Shown piece by piece: positions 36,537 to 51,133 of a stretch of DNA of 64,000 nt (the first letter of the stretch is position 1; the number at the start of each line of letters is the position of its first letter). Origin of the DNA: Streptosporangium saharense (GTDB lineage: Bacteria; Actinomycetota; Actinomycetes; Streptosporangiales; Streptosporangiaceae); the NCBI RefSeq assembly GCF_014203715.1, contig NZ_JACHJP010000007.1, positions 310,001-374,000 on the forward strand. The letters run 5' to 3'. The position numbers and the translations under genes were made by a program. The notes under the pieces are model-generated. The model did no database searches. It saw only the letters and a list, made by a program, of their open reading frames with translations, and was not told the origin of the DNA.

Positions 36537-36542
36537 CCCTTC

Positions 36543-37499
36543 TTACGGCGTGAAGACGATCTTTCCGAAGACGTCGCCGTCCCGCATGGCCGCGAACCCC
36601 GAGCGGGCCTCGGCCAGCGGGAGCACCCGGTCGATCACCGGGCGGGCACCGGTCTGCTCAAGGAAGCGGGCCAGCCTGCCCAACTGCTCGCGGGTGCCCA
36701 TGGTGGAACCGACGACCGAAAGCTGCAGGAAGAAGACCCTGTTGAGGTCGGCGGGGGGTACGGCTCCGCTGGTGGCACCCGAGACGACGATCCGGCCACC
36801 CGGGCGCAGCGCCTTGAGCGAGTGCGCCCAGGTGGCCTGGCCGACGGTCTCCATCACCGCGTCCACCCGCTCCGGCAGCCGGGCGCCGCTGTCGAAGACC
36901 TGGTCGGCGCCCAGTTCCAGGGCGCGGCGCCGCTTGTCCTCCGAGCGGCTGGTGACCCAGACCCGGTAGCCGCCCGCCCTGCCCAGGACGACCAGCGCGG
37001 TCGCGACGCCACCGCCCGCCCCCTGGACGAGCACCGTCGAGCCGGGTTCCAGACCCGCCTTCTCGAACAGCATCCGGTAGGCGGTCAGCCACGCGGTCGG
37101 CAAGCAGGCGGCCTCCTCGAAGCTGAGCGCGGCGGGCTTGGGCACCAGGTTGCGCCGGGGCACGGCCACCCGCTCGGCGAAGGTGCCGTCGTGGACCTCG
37201 GAGAGCAGCGACCTGCGGGGGTCGAGCGTCTCGTCGGGTCCCTCACCGACCACCGCGTGCACGATGACCTCGTTGCCGTCCTCGTCGACACCCGCGGCGT
37301 CGCAGCCGAGGACGATCGGCAGCCTCTCCTGGCGGATCCCCACACCTCTGAGGGTCCACAGGTCGTGGTGGTTGAGCGTGGCGGCCCGCACCGTGACGAC
37401 GGTCCAGCCGTCCTGGGCCTCGGGGTCGGGGCGCTGCCCGAGCGCGAGGCCGGCGAGCGGGTCATCCGGGTCGGTCCGGGTGGCGGTTACGGCGAACAT
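36543..37499 (-). CDS. Zinc-free quinone oxidoreductase-like MDR protein
   Basis: 318 aa medium-chain dehydrogenase/reductase. The NADPH-binding motif is VLVQGAGGGVATALVVLGRAGG, near the centre. The Cys cluster of zinc alcohol dehydrogenases is absent, placing it with the quinone oxidoreductase (QOR-type) branch, which reduces quinones or enones with NADPH. It is convergent with padR, with only 6 bases between stops. ATG 37499. Substrate unknown. Confidence 0.88.
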   Translation of the reverse strand: MFAVTATRTDPDDPLAGLALGQRPDPEAQDGWTVVTVRAATLNHHDLWTLRGVGIRQERLPIVLGCDAAGVDEDGNEVIVHAVVGEGPDETLDPRRSLLSEVHDGTFAERVAVPRRNLVPKPAALSFEEAACLPTAWLTAYRMLFEKAGLEPGSTVLVQGAGGGVATALVVLGRAGGYRVWVTSRSEDKRRRALELGADQVFDSGARLPERVDAVMETVGQATWAHSLKALRPGGRIVVSGATSGAVPPADLNRVFFLQLSVVGSTMGTREQLGRLARFLEQTGARPVIDRVLPLAEARSGFAAMRDGDVFGKIVFTP

Positions 37500-37508
37500 G
37501 GCCGCACC

Positions 37509-38402
37509 CTACCGAACCAGTTTGCCCCTGACCTCGGCGATCACCCGCTCCACGACTCCCCGCTCACCAGAGGCGGCGACGTAGACCCCGTTCCTGCAGA
37601 CGCTCTTCGAGACGCCCTGACCTGCCTCAATCGGGCCGATCGAGGCGGTGTCACAGTGCGGCATGGGCGCGACCACGACCAGCGGCCCGCCGAATCCGCC
37701 GAACCACAGCCGCGGCCCGGCGATCCCGCCCCTGAAGATCTGGCCCGGCTCGGCGAGCCGTACGGGAGAGGAGCCCTCCAGCACGAGGTAGCCGTCCTTC
37801 GTCACTTCGCCGTGCAGGTTCTTCGCCCACAACTGCCGCTGTTCGAAGGTCATCCCGTTCTTCTGGTCGCGCAGCGTGACGTACCAGGGGGTGAAGTCGA
37901 ACAGCATGACCTGCCCCTCCGTGGGGCTCGCCGCCTGCCAGAGGGTGCTGTTGCCGGCCAGCTCGCGGATCATGGGACCGCCCTGGGAGACCTCCTCGTG
38001 CCCTCCCGGGGGAACGGTCAGCTCCCGGTACAGGCTGAAGTAGCCGTCGAGCCAGCCGCCGCGTGCGGGCCGTACGCCCAGTTCGGCCAGGCGCAGGTCG
38101 GCGGGATAGGTGATCTCCGCCTTGGTGCCGTCGGGGAAGACGACGTCCAGGATCTTCCTGTCGCCCTTGGAGCGTGGCTTGGGATAGAGCACGTTGGTCG
38201 GGGTCGCCGCAGCGACCGGTGTGGAGACCGTGCCCGAAACGGTGGCTCGTGGATCGGGGACGGGTGGAAGCCCGGGATCCCTGCTGACCAGCAGACTGAC
38301 GACCGGGACGACCACGAGCGCGGCCAGCACCGCGATCCCGATCCAGCGTCGGGAACCCGCTGGTCCCCCGGCCTCGATGACGTCGTTCGGATCCCCGACC
38401 AC
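37509..38402 (-). CDS. Membrane-anchored extracytoplasmic protein of unknown function
   Basis: 297 aa with one N-terminal membrane segment (IGIAVLAALVVVPVVSLLV, about residues 21-39), a Pro/Thr/Val-rich linker, and a ~230 residue globular domain (for example DGYFSLYRELTVPPGG, FRGGIAGPRLWFGGFGG, CDTASIGPIEAG) with two cysteines that may pair. I do not recognise the family. It begins at GTG 38402 and stops 9 bases from the quinone oxidoreductase start on the same strand, so these two may be co-transcribed. The 355-base spacer upstream holds the SSI-gene terminator and otherwise nothing identified. Confidence 0.7.
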   Translation of the reverse strand: MVGDPNDVIEAGGPAGSRRWIGIAVLAALVVVPVVSLLVSRDPGLPPVPDPRATVSGTVSTPVAAATPTNVLYPKPRSKGDRKILDVVFPDGTKAEITYPADLRLAELGVRPARGGWLDGYFSLYRELTVPPGGHEEVSQGGPMIRELAGNSTLWQAASPTEGQVMLFDFTPWYVTLRDQKNGMTFEQRQLWAKNLHGEVTKDGYLVLEGSSPVRLAEPGQIFRGGIAGPRLWFGGFGGPLVVVAPMPHCDTASIGPIEAGQGVSKSVCRNGVYVAASGERGVVERVIAEVRGKLVR

Positions 38403-38720
38403 GTTCGTACTGCCTTCACGAAATTACGACTTTCGCCCATCTTCGGGGCGTTTGACGCTCGCGCCTAGATCATCCCGATCACAAATCGGAACCGATGTGT
38501 CACCGTCTCGCGACACTCATGGGCGGGAGAATCGGGACCGCGGTTTCCACGGATACCGCAGAAGCGGGTGGTGCCGAAGTTTCCCGTGGTACGGCCGGCA
38601 GCCCTGGGACGTGCTCCCACCTGCTGATCCACCCGCTCGCGACCATAAAGTGGGCTTTTCTCCGTCAACCACTTGGTAAGGTCGCGCTTTTTCTTTCTCC
38701 GGTGGAGGGAATGGTTTTTT

Positions 38721-38749
38721 CCCCGGTGCGGGCCGGTCCCGCACCGGGG
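38721..38749 (-). terminator. Hairpin after the SSI-like inhibitor gene
   Basis: CCCCGGTGCGGG / CCCGCACCGGGG, 12-base perfect arms and a 5-base loop, 9 bases after the inhibitor stop. On the minus strand it is followed by an A-run, so termination is not of the classical T-run kind. Confidence 0.5.
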
Positions 38750-38757
38750 TCAACGCT

Positions 38758-39324
38758 TCAGCGCGGTGAGCGCTCTCCGAAGGAGAAGACCGCGCCGGTC
38801 GCGGCGTACAGCGAGCAGCCGCTGCCGTAGGTCTTCACGAAACGGACGAACCTCCCGTCCCAGGTTCCGGTGGCGGTCACCGTGACCGGGTCGTACCGCA
38901 TCGTGCAGACCACGCCGGACAGGGGTGCGAGCGACCCCGGATCCCCCTTGGCGGAGACCAGCGCGCCGCACGCCCCGACCGGGTCGAGATGCGTGCCCTT
39001 CGGCGGATCGCACGTGAGCAGGACGTGCCGGGTGACCGGCGTCGGACTCTCGCCACGGGCGAAGGTGAGGACGAACGCCCTCGCCCTGCTCGGTGGCCTG
39101 ACCCCGATCGGCCTGACCGGCCCGGGAACGATCGGCACGACCTCCCCCGGGTACGGCGGGGCCGGTCGGAACGGTCCTCCCGTGGGCGGTTCCGGCCGTG
39201 AGGGGCCGCCCGTCGTGCGGTCGGGCTCGCGAGGTGGTGGCGAGGCGGCAGCCGTACCGGACAGGGGGCCTGTCAGGGACAGGGCCAGGAGCCCGGCGGC
39301 TGCCAGGCGGGTGAGACGTCGCAA
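38758..39324 (-). CDS. Subtilisin-inhibitor-like (SSI family) secreted protease inhibitor
   Basis: 188 aa with a signal peptide (LAAAGLLALSLTGPLSGTAAA) and an SSI domain in the last ~110 residues: LLTCDPPKGTHLDPVGACGAL, then VVCTMRYDPVTVTATGTWDG and GSGCSLYAATGAVFSF. The two SSI disulfides are present. By alignment with SSI (C-P-M-V-Y), the reactive-site pair is Met-Arg in CTMRY, predicting inhibition of subtilisin/chymotrypsin-like proteases. A ~55 residue Pro/Gly/Arg-rich segment separates signal and domain and is unusual for the family. The TTG start at 39324 follows GGGGGAA. It is divergent from the first protease paralogue, suggesting that it restrains proteolysis by its neighbours. Confidence 0.88.
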   Translation of the reverse strand: MRRLTRLAAAGLLALSLTGPLSGTAAASPPPREPDRTTGGPSRPEPPTGGPFRPAPPYPGEVVPIVPGPVRPIGVRPPSRARAFVLTFARGESPTPVTRHVLLTCDPPKGTHLDPVGACGALVSAKGDPGSLAPLSGVVCTMRYDPVTVTATGTWDGRFVRFVKTYGSGCSLYAATGAVFSFGERSPR

Positions 39325-39642
39325 GGATTCCCCCGAATGTCGTGTGACGCCGAGTGCGGCTCAGCCTCCCGCACCCATCCCGCTCCGGCAACGACCGACT
39401 CTCGCGTTTTCGCAGCTCATGGCCTCGCACGCCCGTCCGCGCCCGTCTCCGTCAAAGAAGGACAGATCGGACGTGGATCTTGCGAATTCGGTTCCACCCG
39501 TTTGGTAACGAAATCATATCGGTCCCATGTGATGTCCGCTTTGTAGTCCTTTAACCGTTCTTTGCCTAGTACGGTCAGCACTTGTCTCTTTACGCATGCG
39601 TGGGTTGCGTCCCGAGCGACTCATGACAAAGAAGGAGCTAGA
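39325..39642. promoter_or_regulatory. Divergent promoter region between the SSI gene and protease array
   Basis: 318 bases without a gene. The A/T-richer 39500-39600 part (CTTTAACCG ... TAGTAC) is a likely promoter for the array. No palindrome as clear as the CRP sites further on was found. An SD AAGGAG at 39632-39637 serves the TTG start. Confidence 0.4.
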
Positions 39643-41223
39643 TTGAACTTCCGAGCAAAGCACCTGATCCTCCCCCTCGGCGGTGCCGTCGCGGCAACCT
39701 CCCTGGTCAGTGCGACCCTCGCGACCTCGGCGCAGGCCGCCCCCGACCGCAAGACGATCACTCTTGCCGCGTCCGGCAACGCGAAGGCCATCGCGGGCTA
39801 CTGGACCCCCTCCAAGCTGAAGTCGGCGAAGACCTACGTCTCCGAGGGCACCGTCTCCGCCAAGCTCAGGACCGGCGCCTCGCGGGCCTCCGCCGACGGC
39901 AAGTCCGGAACCATCGCCCCCACCGGGGAGAGCGGCAAGAGCGCGGGCAGGTCCAAGAACCTGAACCTCCCCATCACCGTCGGCAAGGTCTTCTTCCTCG
40001 ACGACAAGGGCCAGGAGCGTTGGTGCTCCGGCACCTCGGTGCAGTCGAAGTACCGCAACCTGGTCGCCACGGCCGGGCACTGCGTCTACGACACCGACAC
40101 GAACAAGCCCTACAGCAACTTCGTGTTCATCCCGGGCTACTACCAGGGCAAGGCTCCCTGGGGCATCTACGTCGGCGCGAAGGTCAACGTCCACTACGAC
40201 TTCGACGTCTACGAGGACTACGACTACGACTACGCGTTCGTCAACGTCTACAACGGCATCAAGCAGACGGGCGTCAAGGAAGTCACGATCTCGGAGTACG
40301 AGGCCGCCAAGGGCTTCAAGTACACCGAGGACAAGGCGATCACCAAGGACGAGTACGAGGCCGGCTACTCCAAGTACGGCGAGAAGGGCCCGTTCTGGAA
40401 GAAGACCGCCGACCCCGAGGTCGAGACGGTCGGCAAGCCCGCCGACGCCTCGAAGTACCTTGAGGACTACATCAAGGACGGCCGCAACGGTGTGAAGCTC
40501 ACCGCGGTCGAGGTTGACTCCTACACCTACAGCAAGGCCCCGACCGGCCTGAACAACGGCGCCAAGTTCGAGCGCCTCAGTGACGAAAAGGGCAAGGTCG
40601 GCATCAGCCAGGAGCAGTACAACAAGCTGCTCAAGGAGAAGGCCGACGGCAAGTTCCTCGGCAAGCTGGAGGCGACCAAGGACGTCAACGGCACCGAGAT
40701 CGCCTGGTACAAGACCCAGTACTTCGTGAAGACCTGGGTGAAGACCACGGTCAAGGAGCTCTACTTCCACACGAAGTTCTACGTGGTGCTCCTGGCGGAC
40801 GCGGGTCGTCTCGGCGACAACGTCGGCGGTCAGGGCTTCAGCTGGAACCAGAAGACCGGCAAGAAGGTCTTCACGTTCGGCTACCCCGCCTCGGCCCACC
40901 TCGACGGCGACAAGCCCTACAGCGGTCACACCATGAAGTGGTGCTACGGCACGACCGGCGCGGCCCCGGTCGTCGCGCAGTTCAAGGCCGAGGAGCAGCA
41001 GGCCATCAAGTGCGCCTTCACCCCCGGCGCCAGCGGCGGCCCGTTCCTGCTGCAGTACAAGAGCAGCAAGCGGACCGGCTACCTCAACGGCGTCGTGAGC
41101 CTGACGCTCGACAGTGACAAGAACGGCCGTTACGACCGGGTCACCACGCCGTACTTCAACGGTGAGACCTACGGCATCTACAAGTACGCGGCCAACCTCT
41201 GGACCGGGAAGTTCCCGACCTGA
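39643..41223 (+). CDS. Secreted trypsin/V8-fold serine protease with large interdomain insertion (paralogue 1)
   Basis: 526 aa. The signal peptide ends in SAQAAP (about residue 32), followed by a pro-region. The catalytic triad is visible: His146 in ATAGHCVYD, Asp196 in YDYDYAFV, Ser464 in PGASGGPF. Four cysteines (RWCSG, AGHC, KWCYG, IKCAF) could form the two family disulfides. A ~175 residue Lys/Tyr/Glu-rich insertion lies between the Asp and Ser halves. TTG 39643 is used because AAGGAG is 5 bases upstream and the signal peptide starts there. It is the first of five tandem paralogues and is divergent from an SSI inhibitor gene. Confidence 0.85.
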   Translation: MNFRAKHLILPLGGAVAATSLVSATLATSAQAAPDRKTITLAASGNAKAIAGYWTPSKLKSAKTYVSEGTVSAKLRTGASRASADGKSGTIAPTGESGKSAGRSKNLNLPITVGKVFFLDDKGQERWCSGTSVQSKYRNLVATAGHCVYDTDTNKPYSNFVFIPGYYQGKAPWGIYVGAKVNVHYDFDVYEDYDYDYAFVNVYNGIKQTGVKEVTISEYEAAKGFKYTEDKAITKDEYEAGYSKYGEKGPFWKKTADPEVETVGKPADASKYLEDYIKDGRNGVKLTAVEVDSYTYSKAPTGLNNGAKFERLSDEKGKVGISQEQYNKLLKEKADGKFLGKLEATKDVNGTEIAWYKTQYFVKTWVKTTVKELYFHTKFYVVLLADAGRLGDNVGGQGFSWNQKTGKKVFTFGYPASAHLDGDKPYSGHTMKWCYGTTGAAPVVAQFKAEEQQAIKCAFTPGASGGPFLLQYKSSKRTGYLNGVVSLTLDSDKNGRYDRVTTPYFNGETYGIYKYAANLWTGKFPT

Positions 41224-41240
41224 GGGCGAACCTCGTGAAC

Positions 41241-41270
41241 GGGAAGACCCGCCCTCGGGCGGGTCTTCCC
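41241..41270 (+). terminator. Terminator after protease paralogue 1
   Basis: Perfect 14-base arms GGGAAGACCCGCCC / GGGCGGGTCTTCCC, 17 bases after the stop. Confidence 0.75.
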
Positions 41271-41451
41271 CCACTTGACGGGAGGTTTATGTCCGGAGAT
41301 GCATACTCTCTTCAGTAGCAGTGCAAAACTTTCCGCCAGCGGTGTCAAAGCAGATCACCCCACCAAGCTGCCCAAAACCAAATTGATCTGGAAAAATCAC
41401 CCCTTACGACCCGCTTTCGGCCCTTGATCCCCAGAAGGGAATACGCCCGCC

Positions 41452-42618
41452 ATGTCCCCCCGTGCGAGGCGGCTGACGACCACCCTGAGTGCCCTCGTGG
41501 CCTCCGGTGCGCTCGTCGTGTCCGCGTTCGCCGGGAGCGCCGACGCCGCGGGCGCCCGGGCTGAGAAGGCCGTGGCCAGCAGCATCACCTCCGTCACGCT
41601 GACCAGGACCGGCGCGGACGTGAAGCGGATCGCCGAGTACTGGAGCCCCGCCAAGCTCAAGCAGGCACAGAACAACAACCCCGCGACCCCCGAGGTCAAG
41701 CCCAGCGACGGCAGCAAGGCCTCATCCGCCCCGGTCTCCCCGACCCCGTCCGGTACGGCCAGCGGCGGCACGGCGGTCAAGGCCGTCACCTACAGCACCT
41801 CCAAGTCTTCCAAGGCGGGTTCCCCGGTCGTCAGCCCCGTCCTGCCGACGAAGAAGCAGCCCTCGGACAGCAACCTCCCCCGCACGGTCGGCAAGGTCTT
41901 CTTCAAGATCGGCAACAAGGAGTACTGGTGCTCCGCCTCGGCCGTCGCCTCGAAGAACCACCACCTGGTCGCCACGGCCGGGCACTGCGCCTACGACCCC
42001 AAGCAGGGCAAGGCCGCCGACTACTGGATCTTCATCCCGGGCTACAACCAGGGCAAGACGCCCTACGGCATCTACGTCGGCCACTCGCTCAACCTGCACG
42101 AGAACTTCACCGCCCAGGGCGACTACGACTACGACTACGCCTTCGTGACGGTGCACGACGGGTTCGTCTGGAAGCCCGGCAAGACGGCGAACACCTACCA
42201 GATGGAGCCGGTCGGCAGTCTTGAGGACAACGTCGGCGGCCAGGGCCTGATGGTCAACCGCGGCGTCGGCCTGTCCGTCTTCGCCTTCGGCTATCCGGCC
42301 GCGCCCAACATCGACGGCAGCAGGCCGTACGACGGGCAGCGGATGCTGTGGTGTGACGGGCGCACCTACCAGACCAAGGCGCCGACCCGGCTGGTCGAGG
42401 TGGGCATCTCGCTGGGCTGCACGTTCACCGGTGGAGCGAGCGGTGGACCCTGGTTGATCTACTACGATCCCAAGCAGGGCGTCGGCTATCTGAACGGCGT
42501 CAACAGCTTCGCGTGGGACACCGACACCGACAAGAAGTACGACCGCATCTCCTCGCCGTACTTCATCCAGTCGACCTACGTGGTCTACGAGTACGCCGAC
42601 CGACAGCGTGCCTTCTGA
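41452..42618 (+). CDS. Secreted trypsin/V8-fold serine protease, short form (paralogue 2)
   Basis: 388 aa. Signal peptide with cleavage near SADAAG, then a Thr/Ser/Pro-rich pro-region. The triad is complete: His178 (ATAGHCAYD), Asp228 (YDYDYAFV), Ser330 (GGASGGPW). Four cysteines occupy the same places as in paralogue 1 (YWCSA, AGHC, LWCDG, LGCTF). The ~175 residue insertion is absent, the Asp-Ser linker being short. It is the only array member with an ATG start. It has its own 228-base upstream spacer and is followed directly by an 11-base-period repeat. Confidence 0.87.
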   Translation: MSPRARRLTTTLSALVASGALVVSAFAGSADAAGARAEKAVASSITSVTLTRTGADVKRIAEYWSPAKLKQAQNNNPATPEVKPSDGSKASSAPVSPTPSGTASGGTAVKAVTYSTSKSSKAGSPVVSPVLPTKKQPSDSNLPRTVGKVFFKIGNKEYWCSASAVASKNHHLVATAGHCAYDPKQGKAADYWIFIPGYNQGKTPYGIYVGHSLNLHENFTAQGDYDYDYAFVTVHDGFVWKPGKTANTYQMEPVGSLEDNVGGQGLMVNRGVGLSVFAFGYPAAPNIDGSRPYDGQRMLWCDGRTYQTKAPTRLVEVGISLGCTFTGGASGGPWLIYYDPKQGVGYLNGVNSFAWDTDTDKKYDRISSPYFIQSTYVVYEYADRQRAF

Positions 42619-42685
42619 CCTTATCTGAGCCTTATGGCTACCTTAAGAGAACCTTAAGGCGGCCTTATATCAACTTTTGTCCTTA
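42619..42685 (+). promoter_or_regulatory. CCTTA direct repeats with 11-base period
   Basis: CCTTA begins at 42619, 42630, 42641, 42652 and 42663, exactly one helical turn apart, with another at 42681. The 5-fold phased array resembles binding sites of SARP or OmpR-type response regulators. It lies 69-135 bases upstream of paralogue 3. Confidence 0.7.
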
Positions 42686-42753
42686 CCTGTCTGCATAGGT
42701 TTTTGTCGTCCCATGATTCCGATGCCTGCACTCAAGCAGCGCAAGGAGCAGTC

Positions 42754-43923
42754 TTGAAGCGCATCCTCCTTCCCGTCGCCGGTACCGCCGTCTCCGCAGG
42801 TCTGCTGGCCGCCGGTCTGGCCGGTACCGCCCAGGCCGCCCCGGACTGGGCGACCGACCCGCTGGCCGCCAACAACGCCGCGGCGGTCTCCGTCGTCGAC
42901 TTCTGGACCGCGTCGAACAACGCCGCCCTCAGAAGCGCCACGGCCTACTACCACGACAGCACCCCGCCCTCCTGGAAGTCCGGTGGCGGCTACTCCCCCG
43001 ACGGCAAGCCCGGCTCCGTGCTTCCCATCGGCGAGGAGAAGGCCGCCCCGGCCGTCGTCAAGAACATCAACCTGCCCAGGACCGTCGGCAAGGTCTTCTG
43101 GGTCGACGCCGGCGGGCGTGCGAAGTGGGCCTCGGGCACCTCGGTCCAGTCGAAGTACCGCAACCTGGTCGTCACCGCCGCCCACAACGTCTACGACACC
43201 GCGGGCGTGGGTGACCCCAAGGTCCTCGACAGGTGGGTCTTCGTCCCCGGCTACTACCAGGGCAAGGCGCCCTACGGCATCTACGTCGGTAAGACGGCCT
43301 GGACGCACTACGACTTCGACGTCTACGAGGACTACGACCGCGACTACGCGTTCGTCACCGTCTACAACGGTGTCCTCGCCAACGGCGAGAAGAAGGTCAC
43401 CAAGGGTGAGTACGACAGGTTCACCGGGCCCAAGTGGACCAGGGGTGGCAGCTACTTCATCGGCCTGTCCAGGGACGCCGGTCGCCTCGGTGACAACGTC
43501 GGCGGTCAGGGCTTCACCTGGAACCAGCGGACCGGCCAGGGCGTGTACGTCTTCGGCTACCCCGCGGCCCCGCACCCCGACGGCGACAAGCCCTACACCG
43601 GCGTCACCCCCAAGTGGGTGTACGGCAAGACCACCGGCAAGGTCTACGTCTCGCCCGCCGAGAAGGTCGAGGAGCACGTGGGCCTCAAGGCCGCCCTCAC
43701 CCCCGGCGCCGACGGTGGCCCCTGGCTCGTCAGGTACAGCAACGCCAAGCGCCTGGGCTACGTCAACGGCGTCACCAGCCTCTTCGGCGACCAGGACAAG
43801 AACGGCCGCTACGACCTGATCACCTCGCCGTACTTCGACGGTGAGACCGCCGACATCTACCGCAAGGCCTCCAACGTCTGGTCCGGCAAGATCGTCGGCC
43901 CCAACGGGGAGCTCTACCGGTAG
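42754..43923 (+). CDS. Secreted pseudoprotease, deletion form (paralogue 3)
   Basis: 389 aa. Signal peptide KRILLPVAGTAVSAGLLAAG...AQAAP. His144 (TAAHNVYD) and Asp197 (YDRDYAFV) remain, but the Ser position is Asp320 (PGADGGPW) and all four cysteines are replaced (KWASG, AHN, KWVYG, LKAAL). No Cys is present in the protein. The interdomain insertion is reduced to ~30 residues whose two ends match the ends of the full insertion in paralogues 4-5, so an internal deletion is likely. TTG 42754 follows CAAGGAG. The frame is intact and the codons are highly biased, so this is a selected protein, not a decayed gene. A non-proteolytic role is inferred. Confidence 0.85.
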   Translation: MKRILLPVAGTAVSAGLLAAGLAGTAQAAPDWATDPLAANNAAAVSVVDFWTASNNAALRSATAYYHDSTPPSWKSGGGYSPDGKPGSVLPIGEEKAAPAVVKNINLPRTVGKVFWVDAGGRAKWASGTSVQSKYRNLVVTAAHNVYDTAGVGDPKVLDRWVFVPGYYQGKAPYGIYVGKTAWTHYDFDVYEDYDRDYAFVTVYNGVLANGEKKVTKGEYDRFTGPKWTRGGSYFIGLSRDAGRLGDNVGGQGFTWNQRTGQGVYVFGYPAAPHPDGDKPYTGVTPKWVYGKTTGKVYVSPAEKVEEHVGLKAALTPGADGGPWLVRYSNAKRLGYVNGVTSLFGDQDKNGRYDLITSPYFDGETADIYRKASNVWSGKIVGPNGELYR

Positions 43924-43952
43924 AACCTGAGGCTTTTTCTCTCCTCACACAG

Positions 43953-43990
43953 CGCGAGGCTCGGCATCCGCCGGGCCTCGCGTCCTTTTT
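43953..43990 (+). terminator. Terminator after paralogue 3
   Basis: CGCGAGGC / GCCTCGCG stem with a 14-base loop followed by TCCTTTTT: a classical rho-independent layout. Confidence 0.8.
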
Positions 43991-44040
43991 GTCCGACTTC
44001 CCAGTGAGTGACGATTCCACGACAGGTTGACTACGGGCGC

Positions 44041-44095
44041 GTTAGACGTAGTTCGAGCCGTTTTGGTGCCATCGAAAACTGTGATCTGCGTCACA
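44041..44095 (+). promoter_or_regulatory. Conserved upstream box and CRP site of paralogue 4
   Basis: GTTAGACGT (44041-44049), GGTGCCATC (44065-44073) and the near-perfect CRP site TGTGATCTGCGTCACA (44080-44095). The same three elements at the same 24-base offset precede paralogue 5. cAMP-CRP control is strongly suggested. The start codon is about 276 bases away, so the transcript has a long leader or the site is distal. Confidence 0.75.
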
Positions 44096-44326
44096 CAACA
44101 TCCGGGACTGGAACCGGAGGGCCCTCCGGAAAACGATCTTGATCTTCAATATCAACATTTCGCTGATCTGCCGAAATAGGCACTATGCCTCACTTGAGCC
44201 ACATGAGCCACACCTTCACCGCGCCTCCTTGGACCGGTCCCGGAGGGGTTGACCGGCGACTTTACTGAACGGAGAGACTTCCGCTTACGAAGATCGCCCC
44301 TGTATGTTTCAGTCATCCCTTTACTG

Positions 44327-44347
44327 ACGCTTGGGACGCAAGAGCGT
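44327..44347 (+). promoter_or_regulatory. 5' UTR stem-loop of paralogue 4
   Basis: ACGCT-tgggacgcaag-AGCGT lies 24 bases before the TTG start, just ahead of CAAGGAG. Paralogue 5 has the same loop with a differently composed but still paired stem. Confidence 0.6.
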
Positions 44348-44371
44348 TCCACATCAGACCAAGGAGTTCCC

Positions 44372-45991
44372 TTGAAGCGCATCCTCCTCCCTGCCGGTGG
44401 CGCCGTTCTCGCCACTGGTCTGCTGGCCGCTGGCCTGGCCGGCACCGCCCAGGCCGCCCCGGACTGGGCGACCGACCCGCTGGCGAACAACAACGCCGCT
44501 GCGACCTCTGTCGCTCAGTACTGGAGCGCGTCCAACAACGCCGCCCTGAAGAGCGCCACGGCTTACTACCACGACGCCGCTCCGACCTCCTGGAAGTCCG
44601 GCGGCGGTTACTCGCCCGACGGCAAGCCCGGCGCTGTCCTCCCCACGGGCGAGGAGAAGGTCGTCGCGACCAAGGTCAAGAACATCAACCTGCCGAAGAA
44701 CATCGGCAAGGTGTTCTGGACCGACAAGCAGGGCAAGAACCGCTGGGCCTCCGGCGCTTCGATCCAGTCGAAGTACCGCAACCTGGTCGTCACCGCCGCC
44801 CACAACGTCTACGACACCGCCGGTGTCGGCGACGCCGAGGTGCTGAAGAACTGGGTGTTCGTCCCGGGTTACTACCAGGGCAAGACCCCCTACGGCATCT
44901 ACGTCGGTAAGACGGCCTGGACGCACTACGACTTCGACGTCTACGAGGACTACGACCGCGACTACGCGTTCGTCACCGTCTACAACGGTGTCTTCTACGG
45001 CGGCGACAAGGTCGTCACTCCCGCTGAGTACGACAAGTTCGTCGGCTCGAAGTACGTGGACATCAAGGAAGTCTCCGCTGACGAGGGCGCTGCCGGCCTC
45101 GCCAAGTACGGCCCCGAGGGCCCGTACTACAAGGAGGACACGGTCGCGACCAACGTCGAGACCGTCAACCCCCCGCAGAAGTACTTCACGTGGCAGTCGG
45201 TCAAGCCGTACCTGACCAAGGACGGCAAGGACGGCGTCAAGCTGCTGACCGTCGAGGTCACCTCGTACGACTACCAGAAGGCCCCGAACCACACGCCGAA
45301 GTTCGACAACGGCGAGAAGGCCTACTCGGACAAGGACTCCATCAGCCAGGAGACCTACAAGCAGCTCCTCGCGGAGAAGGCCGCCGGCAAGTTCCTGGGC
45401 GAGCTGACCGCCAAGAAGGACAAGAACGGCACCGAGATCGAGTGGTACAAGACCCAGTACTTCATCGTGAAGTGGGTCAAGTCCACCACCGCCACCACCA
45501 CCAAGTGGTTCCTGAAGACCCACCACATCGAGATCTCCAAGGACGCCGGTCGCCTCGGTGACAACGTCGGTGGTCAGGGCTTCGCGTGGAACCAGAAGAC
45601 CGGCCAGGCCGTCTTCGTCTTCGGCTACCCGGAGGGCCCGCACCCCGACGGTGACAAGCCCTACACCGGCATCACCCCCAAGTGGGTCTACGGCAAGACC
45701 TCCGGCAAGGTGTACGTCTCCGCCGCGCAGAAGATCGAGGAGCACATCGGCGTCAAGGGTGCTCTCACCCCCGGCGCCGACGGTGGCCCCTGGGTCCTCA
45801 AGTACAACAACAACAAGCGTCTCGGCTACGTCAACGGTGTCACCAGCCAGTTCGGTGACCAGGACGGCAACGGCCGCTACGACCTGATCACCTCGGCCTA
45901 CTTCGACGGCGAGACCGCCGACATCTACAAGAAGGCCGCGAACGTCTGGTCCGGCAGGATCGTTGGCCCGAACGGCGAGCTCTACAAGTAA
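44372..45991 (+). CDS. Secreted pseudoprotease with interdomain insertion (paralogue 4)
   Basis: 539 aa. The signal peptide MKRILLPAGGAVLATGLL ends at AQAAP. His144 (TAAHNVYD) and Asp197 (YDRDYAFV) are kept; the Ser position is Asp470 (PGADGGPW). The cysteines of paralogues 1-2 are replaced and I see no Cys in the protein. The ~180 residue Lys/Tyr/Glu/Thr-rich insertion is present (AEEKAAGKFLGELTAKK-like helical tract). It is very similar to paralogue 5. The TTG start follows ACCAAGGAGTTCCC. It has its own CRP-type upstream region and ends with a strong terminator. No protease activity is expected; secretion and heavy expression are predicted from codon bias. Confidence 0.86.
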   Translation: MKRILLPAGGAVLATGLLAAGLAGTAQAAPDWATDPLANNNAAATSVAQYWSASNNAALKSATAYYHDAAPTSWKSGGGYSPDGKPGAVLPTGEEKVVATKVKNINLPKNIGKVFWTDKQGKNRWASGASIQSKYRNLVVTAAHNVYDTAGVGDAEVLKNWVFVPGYYQGKTPYGIYVGKTAWTHYDFDVYEDYDRDYAFVTVYNGVFYGGDKVVTPAEYDKFVGSKYVDIKEVSADEGAAGLAKYGPEGPYYKEDTVATNVETVNPPQKYFTWQSVKPYLTKDGKDGVKLLTVEVTSYDYQKAPNHTPKFDNGEKAYSDKDSISQETYKQLLAEKAAGKFLGELTAKKDKNGTEIEWYKTQYFIVKWVKSTTATTTKWFLKTHHIEISKDAGRLGDNVGGQGFAWNQKTGQAVFVFGYPEGPHPDGDKPYTGITPKWVYGKTSGKVYVSAAQKIEEHIGVKGALTPGADGGPWVLKYNNNKRLGYVNGVTSQFGDQDGNGRYDLITSAYFDGETADIYKKAANVWSGRIVGPNGELYK

Positions 45992-46014
45992 GCCCTAGGG
46001 ACCTGACGGTCTCC

Positions 46015-46090
46015 GAGTCAGGGGGTCCAAACCCCTGACTCACCCAGCTCCACAACGAAGGGGCCCGGTGTGCGCACACCGGGCCCCTTT
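46015..46090 (+). terminator. Double terminator after paralogue 4
   Basis: Two consecutive hairpins: GAGTCAGGGG / CCCCTGACTC (46015-46041) and GGGGCCCGGTGTG / CACACCGGGCCCC (46060-46087) followed by TTT. Confidence 0.85.
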
Positions 46091-46167
46091 GTCATGCCCA
46101 AAAACTCGTGCCGGAGGAGCCCTTCGCGACCGAGGTTCAGTGGCTCACGACCCTCCGAGCGAGGCTC

Positions 46168-46223
46168 GTTAGACGTGAATCGCCCGGATTCGGTGCCATC
46201 AGATTGATGTGATCTGCATCACA
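46168..46223 (+). promoter_or_regulatory. Conserved upstream box and CRP site of paralogue 5
   Basis: GTTAGACGT (46168-46176), GGTGCCATC (46192-46200) and TGTGATCTGCATCACA (46208-46223), a perfect palindrome of the CRP arms TGTGA/TCACA. The arrangement duplicates that of paralogue 4, while intervening bases differ, indicating selection on the sites. The rest of 45992-46500 holds no gene. Confidence 0.8.
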
Positions 46224-46454
46224 TCAAGCAATGTAACCCAAAGTATTGGGACGAATACGCCACTTCAGACACACCAACAACATAGTCAAGTTGATCTGCA
46301 AAAACACTGTAGATCGCCAGCAACCACCAGGGAGACGACACGACTCCATAAAGGTAACAGAATGATATCGGGAGGTTTGGGCGCTTCGCGGCTTCGCCAA
46401 CCGGCTTCCGCTCTTCAAGATCGACACTGTATGTTCCTGGCTATCCCTTTACTG

Positions 46455-46476
46455 ACGCATGGGACGCAAGATGCGT
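46455..46476 (+). promoter_or_regulatory. 5' UTR stem-loop of paralogue 5
   Basis: ACGCAT-gggacgcaag-ATGCGT, a 6-base perfect stem with a 10-base loop, 24 bases before the TTG start. The loop is identical to that of paralogue 4. Confidence 0.6.
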
Positions 46477-46500
46477 TCCACATCAGACCAAGGAGTTCCC

Positions 46501-48120
46501 TTGAAGCGCATCCTCCTCCCTGCCGGTGGCGCCGTTCTCGCCACTGGTCTGCTGGCCGCTGGCCTGGCCGGCACCGCCCAGGCCGCCCCGGACCTGGCGA
46601 CCGACCCGCTGGCGAACAACAACGCTGACGCGGTTTCGGTCGTGAACTACTGGACCGAGTCCAACAATGCCGCTCTGAAGAGCGCCACGGCTTACTACCA
46701 CGACGCCGCTCCGACCTCCTGGAAGTCCGGCGGCGGTTACTCCCCCGATGGCAAGCCCGGCTCCGTGCTGCCGACGGGCGAGGAGAAGGTCGTCGCGTCC
46801 AAGGTCAAGAACATCAACCTGCCGAAGAACATCGGCAAGGTGTTCTGGACCGACAAGCAGGGCAAGAACCGCTGGGCCTCCGGCGCTTCGATCCAGTCGA
46901 AGTACCGCAACCTGGTCGTCACCGCCGCCCACAACGTCTACGACACCGCCGGTGTCGGCGACGCCGAGGTGCTGAAGAACTGGGTGTTCGTCCCGGGTTA
47001 CTACCAGGGCAAGACCCCCTACGGCATCTACGTCGGTAAGACCGCCTGGACGCACTACGACTTCGACGTCTACGAGGACTACGACCGCGACTACGCGTTC
47101 GTCACCGTCTACAACGGTGTCTTCTACGGCGGCGACAAGGTCGTCACCCAGGACGAGTACAAGAAGTTCGTCGGCTCGAAGTACGTCGACGTCAAGGAAG
47201 TCTCCGCCGAGGAAGGCGCCGCCGGCCTCGCCAAGTACGGCCCCGAGGGCCCGTACTCCAAGGAGGACACGGTCGCGACCACGGTCGAGACCGTCAACCC
47301 CCCGCAGAAGCACTTCACGTGGGAGTCGGTCAAGCCCTACCTGACCGAAAAGGGCAAGGACGGCGTCAAGCTGCTGACCGTCGAGGTCAGCTCCTACGAT
47401 TACCAGAAGGCCCCGAACCTCACCTCGAAGTTCGACAACGGCGAGAAGGCCTACGCGGACAAGGACTCCATCAGCCAGGAGACCTACAAGAAGCTCCTCG
47501 CGGAGAAGGCCGCCGGTAAGTTCCTGGGCGAGCTGACCGCCAAGAAGGACAAGAACGGCACCGAGATCGAGTGGTACCAGACCCAGTACTTCATCCTGAA
47601 GTGGGTCAACTCCACCACGGTGACCACCACCAAGTGGTACCTGAAGACCTACCACATCGAGATCTCCAAGGACGCCGGTCGCCTCGGTGACAACGTCGGT
47701 GGCCAGGGCTTCGCGTGGAACCAGAAGACCGGCCAGGCCGTGTACATCTTCGGTTACCCGGAGGGCCCGCACCCCGACGGTGACAAGCCCTACACCGGCA
47801 TCACCCCCAAGTGGGTGTACGGCAAGACCTCCGGCAAGGTGTACGTCTCCGCCGCGCAGAAGATCGAGGAGCACATCGGCGTCAAGGGTGCCCTCACCCC
47901 CGGCGCCGACGGTGGCCCCTGGGTCCTGAAGTACAACAACGCCAAGCGTCTCGGCTTCGTCAACGGTGTCACCAGCCAGTTCGGTGACCAGGACAAGAAC
48001 GGCCGCTACGACCTGGTCACCTCGGCCTACTTCGACGGCGAGACCGCCGACATCTACAAGAAGGCCGCCGCGACCTGGTCCGGCAAGATCGTTGGCCCGA
48101 ACGGCGAGCTCTACAAGTAA
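46501..48120 (+). CDS. Secreted pseudoprotease with interdomain insertion (paralogue 5)
   Basis: 539 aa, the closest relative of paralogue 4 and the same length. Signal peptide ends at AQAAP; His144 (TAAHNVYD), Asp197 (YDRDYAFV), Asp470 in place of Ser (PGADGGPW), no cysteine seen. Differences from paralogue 4 are concentrated at the mature N-terminus (SVVNYWTESNN versus SVAQYWSASNN) and in the insertion. The TTG start with ACCAAGGAGTTCCC is identical to paralogue 4. Duplication is recent, and the intact frame plus retained regulatory elements argue that both copies are used. Function unknown. Confidence 0.86.
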   Translation: MKRILLPAGGAVLATGLLAAGLAGTAQAAPDLATDPLANNNADAVSVVNYWTESNNAALKSATAYYHDAAPTSWKSGGGYSPDGKPGSVLPTGEEKVVASKVKNINLPKNIGKVFWTDKQGKNRWASGASIQSKYRNLVVTAAHNVYDTAGVGDAEVLKNWVFVPGYYQGKTPYGIYVGKTAWTHYDFDVYEDYDRDYAFVTVYNGVFYGGDKVVTQDEYKKFVGSKYVDVKEVSAEEGAAGLAKYGPEGPYSKEDTVATTVETVNPPQKHFTWESVKPYLTEKGKDGVKLLTVEVSSYDYQKAPNLTSKFDNGEKAYADKDSISQETYKKLLAEKAAGKFLGELTAKKDKNGTEIEWYQTQYFILKWVNSTTVTTTKWYLKTYHIEISKDAGRLGDNVGGQGFAWNQKTGQAVYIFGYPEGPHPDGDKPYTGITPKWVYGKTSGKVYVSAAQKIEEHIGVKGALTPGADGGPWVLKYNNAKRLGFVNGVTSQFGDQDKNGRYDLVTSAYFDGETADIYKKAAATWSGKIVGPNGELYK

Positions 48121-48144
48121 GCCGTAAGGATCCGATGATCCACT

Positions 48145-48223
48145 GAGCCGGAGGGTCCAGGCCCTCCGGCTCACCCTGTTCCACACAGAAGAGACCCGGC
48201 GATGCGCACGCCGGGTCTCTTCT
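48145..48223. terminator. Double terminator after paralogue 5
   Basis: Two hairpins: GAGCCGGAGGG / GCCCTCCGGCTC (48145-48172) and a long one with core GAGACCCGGCG (48191-48201) / CGCCGGGTCTC (48209-48219), extended by AGAA/TTCT. It also serves the convergent regulator gene. The two-hairpin layout repeats that of paralogue 4 with unrelated stem sequences. Confidence 0.8.
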
Positions 48224-48282
48224 GTCATGTCCGCTGTAAAGTCCGTGCGCCCCTGCCCGCCGTACGACGTCAGGAATGCCTG

Positions 48283-49644
48283 TCAGGGAGCGGAGACGAG
48301 TTCTCCTGCACGAACGTCCAGCTCAGCGACCGTTCTGTTCCCGGCGAAGGGGGCCAGCCTGCGGCGCAGGTCCGCCACGTAGGACCGGGTCCTCGCCGAC
48401 TGCAGCCCCACGGCCAGGTCGAGCGCCTCGGTCGCCGCGACGCAGGCGTGCTCCAGATCCCCGCTCTGCAACAGCCCCGCTGACAGCAATGCCAGGTTGA
48501 ACATCCGACCTCTGACGTAGCGGCCGTCCATGTCCAACGACCGCTGCGCATGCCGTACGGCTGCCGCCCCGTCGCCTAGGTCGCGGAAGCAGTGGGCGAA
48601 CTTGGCCGACAGATAGGCCTCGTCGAAGTAGGCGATCCAGTCGGGCCGCTCCCCCGTCTCACGCCTGTCGAAGGCCGTCTCCGCCTCGTGCAGGGCGGCT
48701 CCACAGGCCACACGGTCCTCAAGCAGGGCGTGGGCGTGGGCCTCGACGACGTGGGCCTCTGCCAGCAGGGCGTAGATCCCGGCGCGGCGGGCCGAGAGCT
48801 GGGCGGCCCTGGCCAGGTCGAGGGCGTGGGCGGGCTGTCCGATGTACAGGGCCTGGTGGCTCATCCCCGCGAGGATCTCTCCCCCGAGGCCGTGGTCGCC
48901 TGCTTCCCTGGCCAGCCGCAGCGCCTGTATCAGGTAACGCTGGGCCAGACCGTGCTGCTCCAGGTCGTAGGCCATCCATCCGGCCAGCCTGGTCAGCTCG
49001 GCCGCGGCCGAGGCCAGCGCCCTGCCTGTCGTCTCGGCGTAGGAGCCCTCGCCGAGCAGCGGGGCGACTGCGGTGTCGAGGTACTTCACGACCGCCGACC
49101 TGACCCTGCCGCCGCCGAACCTGTTGTCGAGTTCGCCGAAGGACCGGGTGACCTCCTTGATCGCGGCGATGTCGGCCATCCCGACCCGCCGGGGGCCGTT
49201 GGCCGTGGGGTGTCCCTCGACGGGCAGGGTCAGCCAGCGCAGGGCACCGGTCGAGCCCGCGCCGATCGCGAAGGTGGAGTCGAGCAGGAACCTGCGTCGT
49301 TCGACGTCCCCGCGCCACAGTGCTGTCACGGTCGCGATCCCTTCCTGCCACGTGTGGGTGAACTCCTGCCCCAGGTCGGTGGGGGTGGAGACGGCGGGCA
49401 GGCCGAGGTCTTCGACGCCGACCGCCCTGCCGAGCCGGAGGGAGAAGATCTCCGCGAGCAGCACGGGGACCGGGCCTCTCGGTCGTTGGCCGCCGATCCA
49501 GCGCAGCACGGAACTGTGGTCGTACTTCAGGCCGGACAGGCCACGGGTCACCCCGAGGTCGTTGAGCCTGCGGGCAAGCCCCTTGTGGGTGAAACCCGAC
49601 TCGGCGATAAGCCGCTGAAGTGCGCGGTTCGGCTCGCGTTCCAT
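48283..49644 (-). CDS. XRE-type regulator with TPR-like C-terminal domain
   Basis: 453 aa. The N-terminal ~70 residues hold a helix-turn-helix typical of Streptomyces-type XRE regulators (LIAESGFTHKGLARRLNDLG, then YDHSSVLRWIGGQRPRG). The remainder is helical, with TPR-like repeats (LAQRYLIQALRLAREAGDHG, AHALDLARAAQLSARRAG). Such proteins are linked to development or antibiotic control, but this one's targets are unknown. ATG 49644 follows GAGGAGAG. It is convergent with the pseudoprotease array; whether it controls the array is open. Confidence 0.85.
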   Translation of the reverse strand: MEREPNRALQRLIAESGFTHKGLARRLNDLGVTRGLSGLKYDHSSVLRWIGGQRPRGPVPVLLAEIFSLRLGRAVGVEDLGLPAVSTPTDLGQEFTHTWQEGIATVTALWRGDVERRRFLLDSTFAIGAGSTGALRWLTLPVEGHPTANGPRRVGMADIAAIKEVTRSFGELDNRFGGGRVRSAVVKYLDTAVAPLLGEGSYAETTGRALASAAAELTRLAGWMAYDLEQHGLAQRYLIQALRLAREAGDHGLGGEILAGMSHQALYIGQPAHALDLARAAQLSARRAGIYALLAEAHVVEAHAHALLEDRVACGAALHEAETAFDRRETGERPDWIAYFDEAYLSAKFAHCFRDLGDGAAAVRHAQRSLDMDGRYVRGRMFNLALLSAGLLQSGDLEHACVAATEALDLAVGLQSARTRSYVADLRRRLAPFAGNRTVAELDVRAGELVSAP

Positions 49645-49794
49645 CGCTCTCCTCACCGTGAGAACTGTCTGAGCACTGGGGACACGGCCGTCTGTGACGG
49701 CCACCGGCAACCCGCCCCGCATGCCTCTCACGCGAGTAGGTAACGGAACGCCATTTTTATAGCACATTCCGTGAACATTCCTCATGGATTCGCA

Positions 49795-49833
49795 AAGCAA
49801 AAGACGCCCCTCGCCGATCGGGCGAGGGGCGTC
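49795..49833 (-). terminator. Terminator of the malic enzyme gene
   Basis: Perfect 13-base arms GACGCCCCTCGCC / GGCGAGGGGCGTC with a 5-base loop; on the minus strand it is followed by TTTTGCTT. It lies 110 bases beyond the malic enzyme stop. The rest of the 298-base spacer carries the promoter of the XRE gene. Confidence 0.85.
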
Positions 49834-49942
49834 CCCACGAGGGTGGTCCGCCGGTGGAGCTGGAAGGGGGTGACCTGTGCAGGTCCCGGCCGGCGGACGG
49901 GAAGGACTGACCCGGACAGAACGGGTCTGAGACTGGGGGTCG

Positions 49943-51133
49943 CTACCTGCGGGCGACTCCGTCGAGACGGGCCTGCTCGGCGACGGCGGCGATGACCGCG
50001 GGGGCCACCCGCTCGTCGAACGGGCTCGGGACCACGTAGTCGGCGGACAGGTCGTCACCGACGACGGAGGCCAGCGCCTCCGCGGCGGCCACCTTCATGT
50101 TCTCGGTGATGGCCGTGGCGCGGACGTCGAACGCCCCGCGGAAGACGCCGGGGAAGGCCAGCACGTTGTTGATCTGGTTGGGGAAGTCGGAGCGGCCGGT
50201 CGCCACCACGTGGGCGTGCTTCCTGGCGACCTCCGGGTGGACCTCCGGGGTCGGGTTGGACAGCGCGAAGACGATGGAGTTCTTCGCCATCGAGGCGACG
50301 GCCTCCTCGGAGACTGTCGAACCGGACAGGCCGACGAACACGTCCGCCCCGGCCAGCGCCGACTCGGTCGAGCCGCGCAGGCCCGCCCTGTTGGTGTCGC
50401 GCGCCAGGGCCTCCTTGACCGGGTTGAGCCCCTCGCGGCCCTCGTGGATGAGGCCCTTGGAGTCGGCGACCGCGATGTCCCCGATGCCGGCGTTGAGGAG
50501 GATGCGGCTCACGGCGACGCCGGAGGCGCCCGCGCCCGCGACCACGGCCCGCAGGTCGCCCAGCGAGCGCCCGGTCAGCCGGGCGGCGTTCTTCAGCGCC
50601 GCGAGCACGACGATCGCGGTGCCGTGCTGGTCGTCGTGGAAGACGGGGATGTCCAGCAGCTCGCGCAGCCGGTCCTCGATCTCGAAGCACCTGGGGGCGC
50701 TGATGTCCTCCAGGTTGACGCCTCCGAAGGAGGGGGCAAGGCGCACGACGGTCTCGACGATCTCGTCGACACCGGTGCAGCTGATGCAGATCGGCACCGC
50801 GTCGACCCCGGCGAACTGCTTGAACAGCAGGGCCTTGCCCTCCATGACCGGCATGGCGGCGGCGGGGCCGATGTCCCCGAGGCCGAGCACGGCGGTGCCG
50901 TCGGAGACGACGGCGACCACGTTGGAGACCCAGGTGTAGTCGTTGACGAGGTCGGGTTCGTCGGCGATCGCGCTGCAGACCTTCGCGACACCGGGCGTGT
51001 AGGCCAGAGCCAGGTCGTCGGCGTCGCGGACGGGAACGGTCGAGCGGACCTCCAGCTTGCCCCCGCGGTGCAGGGCGAAGGCCGGATCGAGATCGAGGGA
51101 TTCAAGAGAGATGGAAGATGGCGTGACAGCCAC
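49943..51133 (-). CDS. NAD(P)-dependent malic enzyme
   Basis: 396 aa, the short bacterial form without the C-terminal phosphotransacetylase domain. The malic N-domain contains YTPGVAKVCSAIADEP and the metal-site segment FHDDQHGTAIVVLAAL; the NAD-binding motif is VVAGAGASGVAVSRIL. It oxidatively decarboxylates malate to pyruvate, supplying NAD(P)H and linking the TCA cycle to glycolysis. The ATG at 51133 gives the usual N-terminus. It is monocistronic with its own terminator. Confidence 0.94.
   Translation of the reverse strand: MAVTPSSISLESLDLDPAFALHRGGKLEVRSTVPVRDADDLALAYTPGVAKVCSAIADEPDLVNDYTWVSNVVAVVSDGTAVLGLGDIGPAAAMPVMEGKALLFKQFAGVDAVPICISCTGVDEIVETVVRLAPSFGGVNLEDISAPRCFEIEDRLRELLDIPVFHDDQHGTAIVVLAALKNAARLTGRSLGDLRAVVAGAGASGVAVSRILLNAGIGDIAVADSKGLIHEGREGLNPVKEALARDTNRAGLRGSTESALAGADVFVGLSGSTVSEEAVASMAKNSIVFALSNPTPEVHPEVARKHAHVVATGRSDFPNQINNVLAFPGVFRGAFDVRATAITENMKVAAAEALASVVGDDLSADYVVPSPFDERVAPAVIAAVAEQARLDGVARR

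Follow-up and report, generated by a model that had tools for sequence, protein, structure and literature searches.

Within the Streptosporangiaceae, a family of predicted secreted trypsin-fold proteins appears, by parsimony on its gene tree, to have lost the catalytic serine in two ancient and independent events, and in the larger of the two resulting clades, in which Asp replaces Ser, the rest of the active site has been preserved. We describe the family from an array at positions 38758–48120 of a 64,000-nucleotide stretch of Streptosporangium saharense DNA (contig NZ_JACHJP010000007.1, positions 310,001 to 374,000; the whole stretch is called the window here), where one minus-strand gene of the SSI (Streptomyces subtilisin inhibitor) family lies divergent from five tandem plus-strand trypsin-fold paralogues, P1–P5. 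We tentatively read the array as a conserved locus of two differently controlled units, one of an inhibitor with active proteases and one of protease-shaped binding proteins, an interpretation that is plausible but falls somewhat short of probable.

Composition of the Array

The first-pass annotation of this stretch had placed an SSI-type gene divergent from five tandem paralogues, and this layout was confirmed: all five paralogues align, and the SSI-family gene (38758–39324, minus strand; a subtilisin-inhibitor-like, predicted secreted inhibitor) was recognized by PF00720 (80.5 bits against a cut-off of 23.9), by phmmer (6i0i, E = 1.2e-16; SSI, 2sic, E = 9.8e-15) and by its aligned loop. On the evidence of open reading frame (ORF), alignment, and codons, P1 (39643–41223, plus strand) and P2 (41452–42618, plus strand) are predicted secreted Anisep-type proteases with a complete His-Asp-Ser triad (P1: His 40078, Asp 40228, Ser AGC 41032; P2: His 41983, Asp 42133, Ser AGC 42439). 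In P3 (42754–43923), P4 (44372–45991), and P5 (46501–48120), all on the plus strand, His and Asp are retained and GAC (Asp) replaces the Ser codon, at 43711, 45779, and 47908, respectively. The annotation's count of two full triads and three altered but intact copies thus holds, the alteration being the same Ser-to-Asp replacement in all three.

An insert of 181–185 residues, placed after the Asp102 strand, is common to P1 (181 residues, 40258–40800), P4 (185 residues, 44990–45544), and P5 (185 residues, 47119–47673), and P2 and P3 are without it. The alignment further shows an N-terminal region common to active and altered paralogues, and four cysteines of P1 and P2 that are missing from P3–P5. 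Across the first alignment these four cysteines are kept in 162 of the 200 Asp-bearing rows, which include some genomes twice. The probable starts of P1, P3, P4, and P5 are TTG codons (39643, 42754, 44372, and 46501) that follow an AAGGAG-type ribosome site, and P2 probably starts with ATG at 41452.

The nearest solved structures for the paralogues are Anisep (3wy8) and AL20 (3cp7), with V8-type enzymes behind them; of the "trypsin/V8 fold" proposed earlier, the double beta-barrel trypsin fold (S1/PA clan, Anisep/AL20 type) therefore stands, and Glu-specific V8 was rejected as the best label because Anisep and AL20 match better. Pfam trypsin models match P1 and P2 weakly, and P3–P5 fall below the cut-off. 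The array proteins share the secreted trypsin-fold type with Anisep and AL20 but differ from them by the long insert of P1, P4, and P5 and by the missing Ser of P3–P5, and from these residues we class P3–P5 as relatives of Anisep/AL20-type proteases, not as proteases. The P5 insert had no match among PDB sequences, and the inserts of P1, P4, and P5 gave nothing above cut-off in Pfam; a comparison of whole models was filled by protease-domain matches and so says nothing of the fold of the insert.

Conservation of the Locus in the Streptosporangiaceae

Relatives of P3 (E = 1e-10) occur in 96 of 200 genomes of the GTDB family, with up to 17 matches per genome, although 14 of the 96 have just one or two matches with a best E value above 1e-20. 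Loci were compared in a set of 79 from named genomes (Streptosporangium, Planomonospora, Planobispora, Nonomuraea, Herbidospora, Microbispora, Microtetraspora, and others) plus the window; the named loci come from a single scan with P3 as the query, best 80 of 239, which favors P3-like loci. In 111 loci and the window together, 488 ORFs match the family profile, and in the named set plus the window 388 of 407 matched ORFs are full-length.

At least one flank gene is present in 69 of the 80 loci. In the window the left flank consists of a quinone-oxidoreductase-like gene (36543–37499) and a hypothetical gene (37509–38402), relatives of which adjoin the array in many named loci, and the right flank of a regulator-like gene (ORF 48283–50058) and a malic-enzyme-like gene (49943–51133), which recur in named loci; all four are on the minus strand, and the three descriptive names were read from the sequence. 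The usual order is a short active gene, the SSI gene in reverse orientation, a long active P1, a short active P2, a short Asp gene, and one to three long Asp genes. Since this order recurs in related species between the same flank genes, the array is more than a chance arrangement. The left flank is included in 54 of the 80 loci, and 52 of these 54 have genes of the Ser-to-Asp clade (Asp clade) or of the second, Ser-to-Leu clade (Leu clade); Leu-type genes are carried by loci of Microtetraspora, Microbispora, and Herbidospora. One genome of the family has, in addition, a second and separate array of many long-form relatives (G097, contig 5, 59993–79112).

At least one Ser-active and at least one altered copy stand together in 66 of the 80 loci, as would be expected if the Ser-to-Asp copies were helpers or scaffolds that bind active paralogues or zymogens and control their folding, activation, or stability. 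The N-terminal region shared by active and altered copies, the long insert shared by P1, P4, and P5, and the placement of all of them in one locus fit such a role, for which the portions of PMC6636752 consulted offer a precedent in Clostridioides difficile, where CspA reportedly governs the incorporation or stability of CspC. However, P1 is missing from the Nonomuraea loci examined, in which up to three long altered copies are present, so that the altered copies there can do without a P1 partner, and the upstream sites described below differ between active and altered genes. We regard a helper function as unlikely.

Ancient Loss of the Serine and Retention of the Remaining Active Site

To place the serine losses, parsimony was applied to a tree of the 388 full-length genes from the window and the named loci, with four Ser-bearing proteins as outgroup. 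A single Ser-to-Asp change accounts for a clade of 182 of the 388 genes (support 0.94), with one further singleton (L093), and one independent Ser-to-Leu change accounts for a clade of 63 (support 0.905); the total of 17 changes includes three Asp-to-Asn and one Asp-to-Ser. The sole Asp-to-Ser change belongs to a Planobispora rosea gene (L038:11561–13318), which carries Ser (GSSGG) at the nucleophile position within the Asp clade.

The two clades contrast in what became of the remaining catalytic residues. Residue 195 of the Asp clade is Asp in 171 genes, Asn in 7, and another residue in 4, with His57 in 179 of 182 and Asp102 in all 182; the short forms (P3 type) are near invariant, with Asp195 in 68 of 69, His57 in 68 of 69, and Asp102 in 69 of 69. 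Two of the three genes without His57 have residue 195 changed as well (L059:13569 and L075:15681). In the Leu clade, by contrast, His57 and Asp102 are both kept in just 20 of 63 genes, and Ser214 has become Ile in 59. Site rates, computed for the Asp clade on 110 of its 182 genes, follow the same division: Ser214, Asp102, and His57 lie at the 0th (slowest), 7th, and 17th percentiles in the Asp clade, whereas their Leu-clade counterparts lie at the 57th, 72nd, and 72nd. Because these sites are not constrained in this way in the Leu clade, the fold itself does not require them. Two Microtetraspora loci (L097 and L108) contain, past position 11500, tandem Ser-to-Leu copies in which residue 57 is by turns Ser and His along the array. 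Among the alignments used, A2 holds 45 of 53 chosen proteins and A3 47 of 51.

In the Asp clade, proteolysis has presumably been lost with the nucleophile. Asp195 probably forms an ion pair with His57, with His57, Asp102, and Ser214 preserved, and a peptide or protein partner could occupy the cleft without being cut. The almost invariant His-Asp-Asp of the short forms would also suit a different chemistry, in which Asp195 serves as a nucleophile with His57 and Asp102, or His57 and Asp195 hold a metal ion. Asp nucleophiles that replace Ser exist in the alpha/beta-hydrolase fold, but we know of no trypsin-fold enzyme with such Asp chemistry; moreover, Asp195 is replaced in 11 of the 182 genes, 9 of which keep His, and its site rate is middling. 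This alternative is decidedly improbable.

Linkage of the Inhibitor

The window gene shares with the SSI family its PF00720 domain and Met as the reactive-site P1 residue (the residue numbering of the inhibitor loop, distinct from paralogue P1). Its reactive-site region reads C-T-M-R-Y-D-P, in which Met is taken to be the P1 residue by comparison with SSI, which itself has Met at this position. Met is likewise the P1 residue in 30 of 43 array-linked SSIs, which amount to 39 distinct domains, as some genomes are present twice. What sets the window-type SSIs apart is their linkage to a protease array and their own lineage: the linked SSIs form one group, and 19 of 21 unlinked SSIs group separately, the exceptions being one inside the linked group with weak support (L002) and one beside it (L134).

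An SSI gene was found in 30 of the 54 loci that contain the left flank, always on the strand opposite the array. Random placement relative to the array was rejected, given the recurrent linkage, the opposite strand, and the shared flanks. In the remaining 24 left-flank loci no SSI was found even among ORFs of at least 30 amino acids, a search that recovered three positive controls at E = 1.9e-30 or lower. All 24 contain Asp-clade genes, with four such genes in 17, which means that a linked inhibitor is not a requirement for the altered copies. Eight left-flank loci with an SSI contain no Asp-clade gene, and six of these have Leu-clade genes.

In a separate set, at least 36 of 61 array genomes have an SSI within 15 kb among the matches listed, and some of the genomes scored as "not near" may hold an unlisted linked SSI. 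Among the best 30 SSI loci by score in the 200 genomes, 10 lie no more than about 1.5 kb from an array gene. An SSI match is common in the family (173 of 200 genomes), and each of the 25 array genomes that lack a nearby SSI among the matches listed has at least one SSI match somewhere.

The functional link between inhibitor and paralogues proposed by the first-pass annotation, which named co-occurrence in relatives as its check, is upheld in that the two co-occur and their association is not random, but its tie to the altered copies is loose. The same annotation suggested that the pseudoproteases may act as decoys. As an inhibitor sponge, the altered copies would bind SSI in the cleft and so free the active proteases; the retained cleft residues and the linkage of SSI as one lineage in over half of the left-flank loci agree with this, and SSIs encoded elsewhere in the genome are a possible target. 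The Asp-clade genes in all 24 SSI-less loci and the eight SSI-bearing loci without them argue against it, and a decoy function towards the linked SSI is accordingly not supported as the general role. The sponge idea is thus weakened, and we consider it improbable, including in the form directed at SSIs elsewhere.

Upstream Sites and Leaders of the Altered Copies

Exact matches to TGTGAN6TCACA, a CRP-like site, number three in the window against 0.04 expected, and two of these lie 5' of altered genes: TGTGATCTGCGTCACA before P4 (44080–44095, plus strand) and TGTGATCTGCATCACA before P5 (46208–46223, plus strand). The form TGTGATCTGCRTCACA has only two occurrences in the genome, 5' of P4 and 5' of P5. 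The third exact site in the window, TGTGAGAACGGTCACA at 58470–58485, lies outside the array.

Across the loci we counted sites that lie in the 400 nt before the start and deviate at no more than one position, the starts being set by one alignment column and the control being one mononucleotide shuffle per gene. Such sites stand before 81 of 113 long Asp-clade genes (median position -290), 44 of 69 short ones (-208), and 57 of 61 Leu-clade genes (-283), hence 182 of 243 altered copies overall, against 0 of 13 P1-type and 0 of 97 P2-type genes (0 of 110 together); shuffled upstream sequences gave 0 or 1 site per group. Published actinobacterial motifs, in the parts of PMC10033298 drawn on here, are GTG(N)6GNCAC for Streptomyces Crp and GTG(N)8CAC for GlxR; the P4 site fits both of these, and the P5 site fits the latter only. 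The genome itself codes for a Crp-type regulator. The motif was looked for in PMC7074812, and none was found there. A different conserved motif, ATCTGGAAAAAT, occurs upstream of 56 of 97 P2 genes, no more than 110 nt before the gene, with the window copy in the gap between P1 and P2 (41224–41451).

Many of the altered genes also share a structured 5' leader, a hairpin and ribosome site directly 5' of the start codon. The covariance model R1 identifies it before P4 (44318–44377, plus strand; 70.8 bits) and P5 (46446–46506, plus strand; 77.1 bits), both of which are in its training set, and gives a weak, diverged match before P3 (42681–42759, plus strand; 16.8 bits, E = 0.017 in 125 kb). Genome-wide (E up to 1), the P4 and P5 leaders are the sole matches, the P3 leader not being among them, and in Nonomuraea gerenzanensis, which is not in the training set, R1 finds two leaders of 81.5 and 76.5 bits. 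Of the 48 leaders chosen, alignment A5 comprises 44 (41 distinct), L062:6472, L042:16037, L100:1047, and L084:3803 having been dropped as unfitting. With a hand-drawn structure, 94.8% of its cells pair, double-change cells number 12 where shuffles give 2.3, and the covariation score is 0.156 where they give 0.115 (reached in 0 of 500); RNAalifold unaided recovers six inner pairs only. Among distinct leaders, CCCTTT is present in 69 of 90 long Asp, 47 of 52 Leu, and 23 of 30 other genes, and in 4 of 66 short Asp, 1 of 91 P2, and 0 of 9 P1 genes.

A Proposed Division into Two Units

The reading that we prefer, with the reserve stated at the outset, is as follows. The first unit would be the SSI-type inhibitor with one or two predicted active Anisep-type proteases (P1 and P2). 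The second would be the tandem protease-shaped proteins P3–P5, in which a single change in the clade's ancestor turned the nucleophile into Asp and which may since have been retained as binding proteins. As most of the altered copies have upstream CRP-like sites and many have the hairpin leader, this second unit is probably made under conditions unlike those of the first, for example in development or starvation linked to cyclic AMP and CRP.

Several observations count against this reading. Asp195 lies at the 39th percentile of site rates in the Asp clade, far less constrained than Ser195 of P2, which is at the bottom, so Asp195 is not essential in every member. Fragments are present in some loci (L044, L047, and L083). 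Window P3 has no CRP-like site, and about 290 nt before the start codon, the position in long-form genes, exceeds the classical CRP activation distance. Such sites also precede 15 of 32 "other" genes, 14 of those with Ser (14 of 28 Ser-bearing genes of neither P1 nor P2 type). The site was accordingly rejected as a mark of inactivity alone; from its distribution, we take it instead to label the array's distal part and the relatives of that part. The 48 leaders were picked for containing CCCTTT, and the four that did not fit were dropped, which biases the covariation towards structure. Finally, median ratios of nonsynonymous to synonymous substitution (dN/dS) inside groups are 0.51–0.85, highest for the long Asp genes; they were computed by NG86, which is unreliable at this G+C because synonymous distances are squeezed, and weight is given to close pairs only.

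Those high medians, together with variable copy number, further residue losses in some members, and the fragments, could indicate neutral or decaying tandem duplicates without a special role. The close pairs point the other way, with NG86 dN/dS of 0.29 for P1, 0.33 for P2, and 0.41 for P3 against S. carneum and 0.43 for P4 against P5, as do the preponderance of full-length ORFs, the single ancient origin, the kept His, Asp, and Ser214, and the conserved leaders and upstream sites. Recent local pseudogenes were rejected as a general explanation by the single origin and the dN/dS values, and we disfavor neutral duplication as very improbable indeed; the altered copies appear to be maintained by selection. 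A bolder reading would make the Ser-to-Asp clade a new functional class of the trypsin fold, with His57-Asp102-Asp195 as a working site, by way of an Asp nucleophile or a bound metal, formed as a CRP-type-controlled tandem expansion beside a protease–inhibitor pair; we hold this to be quite doubtful.

Other Features of the Window

A terminator-like hairpin of 14 pairs followed by a T-rich tail lies downstream of P3 (43952–43983, plus strand), detected in a pattern scan as a consensus match only. The Rfam scan of 36000–50000 gave two matches, both below the gathering threshold; a match to FsrA directly 3' of P5 (48148–48220; 33.9 bits against a gathering threshold of 80) is probably a hairpin or terminator. 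For the regulator-like gene, Pfam gave sub-cut-off matches only (48283–49854).

Comparison with Known Systems

The first-pass annotation knew of no described system with this makeup, and we likewise found none with this combination, including the conserved Ser-to-Asp clade, in the open-access literature among the matches listed, the Csp proteins of C. difficile and the scabies mite SMIPP-S being close in kind. To our knowledge the Csp system includes no SSI. As far as the sections of PMC6636752 used here describe it, it resembles the array in that a bacterium has active paralogues together with catalytically dead ones, with CspB a protease and CspA and CspC pseudoproteases that are functional although dead. 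It differs in its subtilisin fold, where the array has the trypsin fold, in its role in spore germination, and in the alteration of CspA and CspC at two triad residues (PMC6636752). The SMIPP-S are a family of inactivated serine-protease paralogues, described in the portion of PMC4031079 at hand as binding proteins whose binding site is not the residual active site. They are animal proteins directed against host complement, whereas in the array it is the former active-site residues that are conserved.

The spl operon of Staphylococcus aureus, which the parts of PMC7926377 and PMC8765433 drawn on here give as six proteases in one operon, resembles the array as a tandem set of predicted secreted trypsin-fold paralogues. 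Spl structures appear among the fold matches of the array proteins, and the Spl proteins are described as proteases, whereas three of the five array copies are without Ser. As far as is known, the triad is intact throughout the Spl copies, and we know of no altered majority or linked SSI-type inhibitor in spl. Arrays of secreted proteases, functional bacterial pseudoproteases, and families of inactivated serine proteases are thus known already, and it is their combination here that appears to be new among the open-access matches listed.

The array and its relatives provide a large natural set of candidate bacterial pseudoproteases that stand beside active sisters and an inhibitor. Within this set, replacement of the serine by Asp, where the other active-site residues are preserved, can be set against replacement by Leu, where they erode, and because of this contrast soluble secreted proteins would allow a direct test of what a dead protease is kept for. 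The structured leader and the CRP-like sites upstream may offer a handle on when the altered copies are used.

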